Assembly (NCBI GenBank): GCA_013154035.1
Contig: JAADDH010000088.1
Location: 1-33,028, forward strand
Source of the DNA: Candidatus Iainarchaeum sp.
Lineage (GTDB): Archaea; Iainarchaeota; Iainarchaeia; JAADDC01
Reading direction: 5' to 3'
Length of the DNA stretch: 33,028 nt
Both the position numbers and the translations under genes were made by a program. This document shows positions 10 to 28,451 of the stretch, piece by piece. The notes beneath the pieces were generated by a model. That model made no database searches and was not told the origin of the DNA. It saw only the letters and a program-made list of their open reading frames with translations. Numbering within the stretch: position 1 is the first letter of the stretch; every line of letters begins with the position of its first letter.

Positions 10-89
10 CGATGCAGCATCGCAAACTCCACGAGTTTGTGTGCACGCGAACATAGTTCGCGATGGGGTGCAGGGGGCGCAGCCCCTGC
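10..89. repeat. cluster of short-loop perfect hairpins downstream of tRNA-Arg
   Basis: CGATG-CAG-CATCG (10-22), CAAACTC-CAC-GAGTTTG (23-39), CGCGAAC-ATA-GTTCGCG (46-62), GCAGGGG..CCCCTGC (70-89). Confidence 0.7.
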
Positions 90-92
90 TAG

Positions 93-167
93 CGGGCCCG
101 GGGGGATTCGAACCCCCGACCTGCGGCTTAGGAGGCCGCCGCCATATCCAGACTAGGCTACGGACCC
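93..167 (-). tRNA. tRNA-Arg (anticodon CCT)
   Basis: Minus strand folds as a cloverleaf: acceptor GGGTCCG/CGGGCCC, anticodon stem GCGGC-CTCCTAA-GCCGC (anticodon CCT), T-arm CGGGGG TTCGAAT CCCCC. Confidence 0.95.
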
Positions 168-27877: not shown

Positions 27878-27886
27878 ATTTATTAG
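27878..27886 (-). promoter_or_regulatory. TATA-like element for M18 aminopeptidase
   Basis: Minus strand CTAATAAAT about 25 nt upstream of ATG 27856. Confidence 0.5.
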
Positions 27887-27940
27887 CTCAGACGGTTTGC
27901 TTCTCATCACCAGTCAGCGGTTGTACACGTCATCATCGCC
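27885..27940 (-). ncRNA. box C/D guide sRNA (candidate 2)
   Basis: Minus strand: C box ATGATGA (27936-27930), guide CGTGTACAACCG, D' CTGA (27917-27914), 3-nt spacer CTG, C' GTGATGA (27910-27904), guide GAAGCAAACCGT, D CTGA (27891-27888); upstream TATA-like CTTATATTC near 27962-27970. Confidence 0.87.
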
Positions 27941-27999: not shown

Positions 28000-28154
28000 C
28001 GGCTGCCATGTCAGCCGGCACCACGGAGGGTTCCTACGGAACCCTGCCACTGTGGACCTGACTAATCATAAAAGGGCCTACTAAGCGAACGAAGTGGGCA
28101 CATGCCACCACATCGCGAACTCTGTTCGCACGCACGCAAGCGGAGCTTGCGATG
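28000..28154. repeat. tandem short-loop hairpin cluster
   Basis: CGGCTG..CAGCCG (28000-28017), AGGGTTCC-TAC-GGAACCCT (28027-28045), GCGAAC-TCT-GTTCGC (28115-28129), CGCAAGC-GGA-GCTTGCG (28135-28151). Confidence 0.75.
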
Positions 28155-28192
28155 GAGCAGTTGGTGTGATGGCGGGGGCTGGGATTCGAACG

Positions 28193-28364
28193 GCCAGCTT
28201 CTCTGGCGACCCGGAGTTCCTCCGAGCGCGCCTGACGTAGTCAGTGCGCCGAACGACGGGCAGCATTCGCTAGCGCTCAGCTACCCATGGGAATATTGCA
28301 GAAATAGTGGTTGTGCGTGGGGCCGAAGCGCCCCACCCGCGACTCGCCGGCCGCGTATCGGCCG
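28193..28364. repeat. tandem short-loop hairpin cluster containing a tRNA 3'-end-like segment at its edge
   Basis: GCCAG..CTGGC (28193-28207), CGGAG-TTC-CTCCG (28212-28224), CTGAC-GTA-GTCAG (28232-28244), GGGCAGC..GCTACCC (28258-28286), GTGGGGC..GCCCCAC (28317-28336), CGGCCG..CGGCCG (28348-28364). Confidence 0.72.
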
Positions 28365-28367
28365 TAG

Positions 28368-28451
28368 TGCGGGGGCTGGGATTCGAACCCAGGCAGGCAC
28401 TAAGCCACCGGACCCTCAATCCGGCCCCTTTGTCCCCTCGGGCACCCCCGC
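28368..28451 (-). tRNA. tRNA-Leu (anticodon GAG)
   Basis: Minus strand: acceptor GCGGGGG/CCCCCGC, anticodon arm CCGGA-TTGAGGG-TCCGG, long variable arm, T-arm CTGGG TTCGAAT CCCAG. Confidence 0.95.

Follow-up and report, generated by a model that had tools for sequence, protein, structure and literature searches.

Organization of the locus

The window, a 33,028-bp stretch of DNA, is contig C83 of G000, a 1.01-Mb archaeal assembly of 88 contigs (C numbers denote contigs, of G000 unless another genome is named). It contains two copies of a short double-hairpin module beside tRNA genes, among the following features.

1 to 91, no strand: assembly overlap node of 91 bp, identical in sequence to one end each of C42 and C78
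18 to 65, minus strand: module copy 1 (48 bp long), with the minus-strand reading CAT-CGCGAAC TAT GTTCGCG-TGCA-CACAAACTC GTG GAGTTTGCG-ATG
70 to 89, minus strand: hairpin GCAGGGG..CCCCTGC, an array component between tRNA-Arg and copy 1
92 to 167, minus strand: tRNA-Arg(CCT)
27886 to 27940, minus strand: hit to sR1, an archaeal C/D-box RNA (RF01152, 48.8 bits), lying between the upstream genes and copy 2
28111 to 28154, minus strand: module copy 2 (44 bp long), in a CTGCTC^TGGTGG context
28172 to 28191, minus strand: 20-bp duplicate of the tRNA-Leu(GAG) T-arm/3′ end, GTTCGAATCCCAGCCCCCGC
28192 to 28368, minus strand: cassette rich in hairpins that separates the duplicated tRNA-Leu 3′ end from the complete gene
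28367 to 28451, minus strand: tRNA-Leu(GAG), complete gene, whose final 20 nt (28369-28388) recur at 28172-28191

The module has the frame CAT-hairpin-TGCA-hairpin-ATG, spans 42-48 bp with hairpins of 6-9 bp and lacks coding capacity. For the window copies, the frame is best described with 7 bp in the hairpin before TGCA and 7-9 bp in the one after it. Every copy carries the stem CGCxxxx/xxxxGCG in its first hairpin, followed by TGCA, a second such hairpin and ATG. Both window copies lie where the earlier note, made from the sequence alone, had placed a two-hairpin module, and the proximity to tRNAs that it described is borne out, with copy 1 located 27 bp 3′ of tRNA-Arg(CCT) and copy 2 located 17 bp from the duplicated tRNA-Leu fragment and 213 bp from the complete gene. 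As the frame is identical in form on either strand, that note had compared the two copies in opposite orientations. In register, with copy 1 reverse-complemented (CATCGC-GAAC-TAT-GTTC-GCGTGCACAC-AAACTC-GTG-GAGTTT-GCGATG), the copies share an identical GAAC/GTTC hairpin stem and differ there in the loop alone. The other hairpin reads AAGC-GGA-GCTT in copy 2 and AAAC-TCGTGGA-GTTT in copy 1, which amounts to one G-C to A-T pair change and a longer, paired loop in copy 1. The claim that each stem differs but stays perfectly paired is thus reduced to one stem with about one compensatory pair, and pairing is largely rather than perfectly kept, copy 1 having a G-T wobble and copy 2 a broken C-A pair as well as a mutated centre (CGCA). 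The sequence AGCGAACG, described as preceding both copies, is present at 1-8 and 28084-28091 and is no part of the module, since its distances from the two copies differ, as do the neighbouring hairpins.

The window copies score far beyond chance under a covariance model of the module (E-values of ~1e-11 or lower). At gathering score, Rfam matches in the window comprise two tRNAs and sR1, with none to the module, in agreement with the view that it belongs to no named family. Bases 1-91 are common to contigs C42, C78 and C83, and copy 1 is therefore a stand-in for a repeat collapsed by assembly. The GCAGGGG..CCCCTGC hairpin component is also found 3′ of other tRNAs, namely tRNA-Val on C13 and tRNA-Ser on C77.

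Copy number and distribution

The genomes searched are fragmented MAGs, with several repeats at contig ends, and include four further genomes of the same genus (G001-G004, Micrarchaeota) and one of a sister genus (G005); completeness is 92% for G001 and 68% for G004. All G000 contigs were rejoined for searching the whole assembly, and a tolerant scan found 10 places, three of which (C42:27, C78:27 and C83:18) are one 91-bp node, giving a minimum of eight distinct loci, although the node may hold more than one copy. The covariance model, built from the 44-bp module copies and run on 87 genomes of the phylum (5 in the genus and 82 outside), matches eight loci in G001, two in G002 and one in G003, with no match in the 68% complete G004 or in any of the 82 genomes outside the genus. 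In a pattern scan of a genome collection, the Micrarchaeota record JALVAT010000038 bears the same element and matches G001 contig C38 in sequence; the other matches listed are scattered, mostly bacterial and without repeat-like clustering, and were judged to be chance. Generic two-hairpin pairs with a 4-nt linker number 492 in G000 and 353-427 in shuffles; such pairs are therefore uninformative in themselves, and the framed module alone is informative.

The copies cluster near tRNA genes, on a side that depends on the species. In G000, each of the copies on C3, C7, C14, C77 and C78, like both copies in the window, is found 3′ of a tRNA at a distance of 14-213 bp, and the copy on C5 is at a contig end with no tRNA within reach. 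Both G002 copies are 3′ of tRNA-Pro genes, most G001 copies are ~18 bp 5′ of a tRNA, on the opposite side from those in G000, and the single G003 copy has no tRNA nearby. About 46 tRNAs with 250 bp on each side make up ~2-3% of the genome, and the clustering in G000, G001 and G002 is therefore not due to chance. For tRNA-Val(CAC), G001 has a 5′ array with a module, and the 5′ flank common to G000 and G002 carries no array. A role tied to one tRNA end is rejected on account of the flip from the 3′ side (G000, G002) to the 5′ side (most of G001), which together with the G003 copy also speaks against a fixed function in maturing tRNAs.

Duplicated tRNA ends and hairpin cassettes

Hairpin-rich repeats precede or follow many tRNAs of the genus, and the modules lie within these larger arrays. 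At ~25-30 tRNA genes of G000, G001 and G002, a partial second copy of the tRNA is found 85-225 bp away. The underlying scan gave 3′ and 5′ cases, respectively, of 6 and 6 in G000, 5 and 3 in G001, and 7 and 9 in G002, a few of which instead match the T-arm or flank of a neighbouring tRNA, hence the lower figure for convincing cases. The duplicated pieces measure 13-38 bp, the tRNA itself is intact, and the duplicate marks the far side of the cassette. The 3′ duplicates usually start in the T-loop (GTTC^RAATCC) and end 0-21 bp beyond the tRNA, and the 5′ duplicates comprise approximately the initial 13-20 nt, as far as the D-arm. The sister genus genome G005 has no convincing duplicate, as both of its 3′ matches are T-arm matches to neighbouring tRNAs. 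A link of the T-arm boundary (~position 58) with reverse transcription halted at a methylated tRNA base is no more than speculative, as G001 has no RVT_1 match and 5′ duplications exist.

Two observations concern how the arrays change. The tRNA-Pro(CGG) and tRNA-Pro(TGG) genes have the same composite flank, and recombination between tRNA or array homologies therefore probably spreads composites. In G001, another 44-bp insert (TCGAGCG..GGGTTTGGGG) in the loop of a GGGG..CCCC hairpin is present or missing depending on the array, indicating that other array components too come and go as units.

Empty and filled sites

Four contexts occur both empty and filled in G000 and G001, with exact ends, no target duplication and microhomology of 0-1 nt.

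CTGCTC^TGGTGG: one empty site at C58:3522-3534; five filled, including copy 2
TGCACCC^CTGC: one empty site at C13:26326-26338; filled sites on C77 and in the shared node (copy 1)
CACG^TCAACCGG: in G001, nine empty and eight filled
TCACG^CCA: one empty site on C2; one filled on C5

Two further contexts are found in G002 and G003, and the same end points are used in at least six contexts overall. The module borders are always CAT and ATG, with the exception of GTG at C5, and several of the target sites coincide with the foot of a further hairpin or the edge of its loop. All eight G001 modules occupy a single context, so that part of the spread may be copying of larger arrays by recombination rather than insertion of the module. 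The empty sites could in principle be precise losses. Precise empty and filled sites combined with species-by-species turnover fit a mobile DNA element better than selection on RNA or single-stranded DNA structure.

Passive processes, i.e., replication slippage, template switching and gene conversion between tRNA loci with no element-like behaviour, are a rather unlikely source of the whole pattern. Such processes are in keeping with the composite flank common to the two tRNA-Pro genes and with a G001 copy in which the stem is unchanged and the loop is inverted (GGA for TCC), which is typical of strand switching in a palindrome; both loop inversion and the correction of arms are hallmarks of template switching. 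However, the same end points in at least six contexts with microhomology of 1 nt or less are unlike slippage alone, as is the presence of copies in unrelated intergenic contexts, and the restriction to one genus together with repeated use of one unit suggests a proliferating element.

Paired changes and predicted folding

In the model alignment of 26 distinct rows, both-side changes occur in 10 of 17 pairs compared to 4.0 +/- 1.1 in shuffles, a figure inflated by counting both strands, and 98.6% of cells pair, dropping to 19-47% in slid versions. With one orientation and each locus counted once, double changes are found in 6 of 17 pairs, mostly contributed by G002, G003 and the AAAC variant, and the 236 cells comprise 229 Watson-Crick, 2 wobble and 5 broken pairs, with broken pairs remaining at C14 and window copy 2. 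As the rows are related, the alignment is fitted to the structure and arm-to-arm correction is possible during replication, the paired changes are evidence of maintained pairing and not by themselves of selection on RNA. Arm-to-arm correction of palindromes can yield paired changes without selection, and selection on structure, too, would be expected to produce covariation between lineages. Folded as single-stranded DNA, the module is predicted to form two hairpins (z ~ -3.5), whereas the predicted fold of the isolated RNA differs from two hairpins; the predicted fold of the RNA of the 91-nt context holds both.

The central observation of the earlier note, a recurring two-hairpin module with covarying arms, is upheld by copies in four species and by paired changes above shuffles. 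Neither of the outcomes that the note had named as refuting it, a lack of further copies or of complementary arms in relatives, was obtained, since copies occur in four species and 10 pairs are changed on both sides. Its step from paired arms to selection on RNA or single-stranded DNA structure is not established, given the broken pairs, the empty and filled sites and the comparison in opposite orientations, which supplied much of the two-copy argument.

A structured RNA, transcribed in tRNA leaders or trailers or as a small RNA and selected for its structure, e.g., for processing or protection of tRNA precursors, is an unlikely account of the module. It would be in line with the location of most copies within 150 bp of tRNAs, with paired changes exceeding both shuffles and slid controls and with the two hairpins predicted in the 91-nt RNA. 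Against it stand the change of side between G000/G002 and most of G001, the variety of the tRNAs involved, the existence of orthologous tRNAs without a module, the G003 copy without a nearby tRNA, the persistence of the broken pairs and the failure of the isolated module to be predicted as two hairpins in RNA form.

Search for a mobilizing enzyme

The Y1 transposase domain PF01797 has no match in the five genus genomes, with control genomes giving matches, the tyrosine recombinase domain PF00589 has none in G001, G002, G003 and G004, Cas1 has none in G001-G004, and reverse transcriptase (RVT_1) has none in G001. All four are therefore rejected as a common driver on the basis of their absence from G001 (92% complete), and movement would have to be ascribed to an enzyme that is unlisted or external, or else to a process based on repair.

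The window's own genome holds several candidate genes of these types. Of the PF00589 matches in G000, three are tandem tyrosine recombinases on C76 (1-12860), a contig with bacterial-looking genes including a TetR-type regulator. Judged by this gene content, C76 is probably contamination of the assembly, and its integrases are set aside. The remaining match, at C20:20128-20945, is a tyrosine recombinase near a tRNA-Ala 3′ fragment of ~40-55 bp (matches on C14, C82 and C28), and the region resembles the boundary of an integrated element of conventional type. A Cas1 gene is located at C80:9428-10243 (E 9.7e-71), and the start of the same contig has 76-bp-spaced repeats that may be a CRISPR array. 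Two similar reverse-transcriptase domains lie in long open frames at C1:1778-2260 and C8:3864-4346, have no counterparts in the four sister genomes searched, and may belong to diversity-generating retroelements or introns.

The T-arms and 3′ ends of tRNA genes are classic integrase targets, and the duplicated tRNA ends resemble attL/attR sites. The cassettes could thus be integrated by a viral or plasmid tyrosine integrase or an integron-like enzyme, with the double hairpin as the recombination site, and the native tyrosine recombinase near the tRNA-Ala fragment on C20 is compatible with this. Such an origin is decidedly unlikely, however, as PF00589 is missing from G001-G004 even though G001 and G002 are cassette-rich, the three C76 integrases are on a bacterial-looking contig, and the C20 duplication is of a different type that starts near the anticodon arm. 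In addition, 5′-end/D-arm duplications are unlike the usual T-arm target, repeats that run as far as 21 bp beyond the tRNA are hard to fit as attP homology, and the module ends in CATCGC/GCGATG with no attC-type RYYYAAC/GTTRRRY boxes. Movement as REP/REPIN- or MITE-like repeats by a Y1 (RAYT) transposase or a casposase is highly improbable. Paired inverted ~20-bp hairpins do resemble REPINs and casposons insert at tRNA 3′ ends, but PF01797 has no match in the genus genomes and no target duplication surrounds the modules. For a casposon or derivative the Cas1 result is mixed, with a gene on G000 C80 and no match in G001-G004.

Proposed mode of spread

Weighing these results, the module is probably a miniature mobile element of DNA, non-autonomous and made of two hairpins, that lies nested within hairpin cassettes at tRNA ends, a reading drawn from sequence comparison to which we assign a probability of approximately 0.7. 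The module would insert with exact ends, in most cases where another hairpin of an intergenic array has its foot or the edge of its loop, and would spread by copy-and-paste at the DNA level. The likely driver would be a trans-acting or repair process on extruded hairpins, e.g., nicking at hairpin feet with template switching. The arrays would build larger composite cassettes that enter tRNA ends with the tRNA kept intact, and recombination between tRNA or array homologies would then relocate the composites. The arms may remain complementary largely via arm-to-arm correction rather than a cellular role.

More tentatively, the whole system is possibly an undescribed archaeal parasite composed of hairpins only, in which cassettes enter the T-arm or D-arm of a tRNA and copy out the tRNA end, the tRNA survives, and the cassettes become landing pads for double-hairpin elements, with no known transposase or integrase involved.

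For the mobile-element reading, the broader meaning is threefold. A reduced genome of ~1 Mb can bear many non-coding hairpin insertions at essential tRNA genes, such insertions break short-read assemblies, and paired changes between repeat copies need not signify selection on RNA structure.

Comparison with known systems

In the literature searched, no earlier description of hairpin or palindromic elements in Micrarchaeota or DPANN was found, and the nearest systems come from other settings. Archaeal integrative elements of tRNA genes (PMC6563490) are like the cassettes in that duplicated tRNA ends flank the insert and the tRNA is intact; the cassettes differ in being ~85-225 bp and non-coding, in using both the 3′ and 5′ ends of tRNAs, and in the lack of an integrase in three of the four module-bearing species. 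REP/REPIN sequences and their RAYT transposases (PMC2817692, PMC3733652) similarly involve small extragenic palindromes in inverted pairs, whereas the genus has no Y1 transposase and the module has a copy number of 1-10, no GTAG/CGTC tag and variable arms.

By our comparison, mitochondrial double-hairpin elements (DHEs) and GC clusters are closest in form to the module. Paquin and co-workers are said to have found DHEs inserted into other DHEs and compensatory stem changes in them. DHEs and related repetitive hairpin-forming elements occur in the mitochondrial DNA of fungi and sponges (Paquin et al. 2000, cited in PMC2800124; Erpenbeck et al. 2009, PMC2800124), and the Allomyces DHEs have no reported flanking duplication (PMC2800124). 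Like the module, DHEs are short intergenic two-hairpin units that are scattered among close relatives, and the module has the compact two stem-loops, the empty sites without target duplication and the compensatory stem changes expected of a DHE-like element. Unlike DHEs, it is located in an archaeal chromosome, beside tRNA genes in cassettes with duplicated tRNA ends, and has a CAT/TGCA/ATG frame. The GC42 clusters of yeast mitochondria (PMC4478555) share with the module a palindromic unit of ~42 nt, rapid turnover and the merging and shuffling of palindromes. Their amplification mechanism, too, is unsettled (PMC4478555). GC42 clusters have putative AG target-site duplications (PMC4478555), whereas the module has no target-site duplication and occurs in another genome with other neighbours.

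The likeness between the module and mitochondrial DHEs is one of form and behaviour, as units of ~44 bp are too short, and too unlike in sequence, for descent to be claimed. Mobile double-hairpin elements are discussed for mitochondria in the literature searched, where how they move is unsettled, and the archaeal form, with its exact empty sites and duplicated tRNA ends, provides an independent system in which to test the question of mobility.
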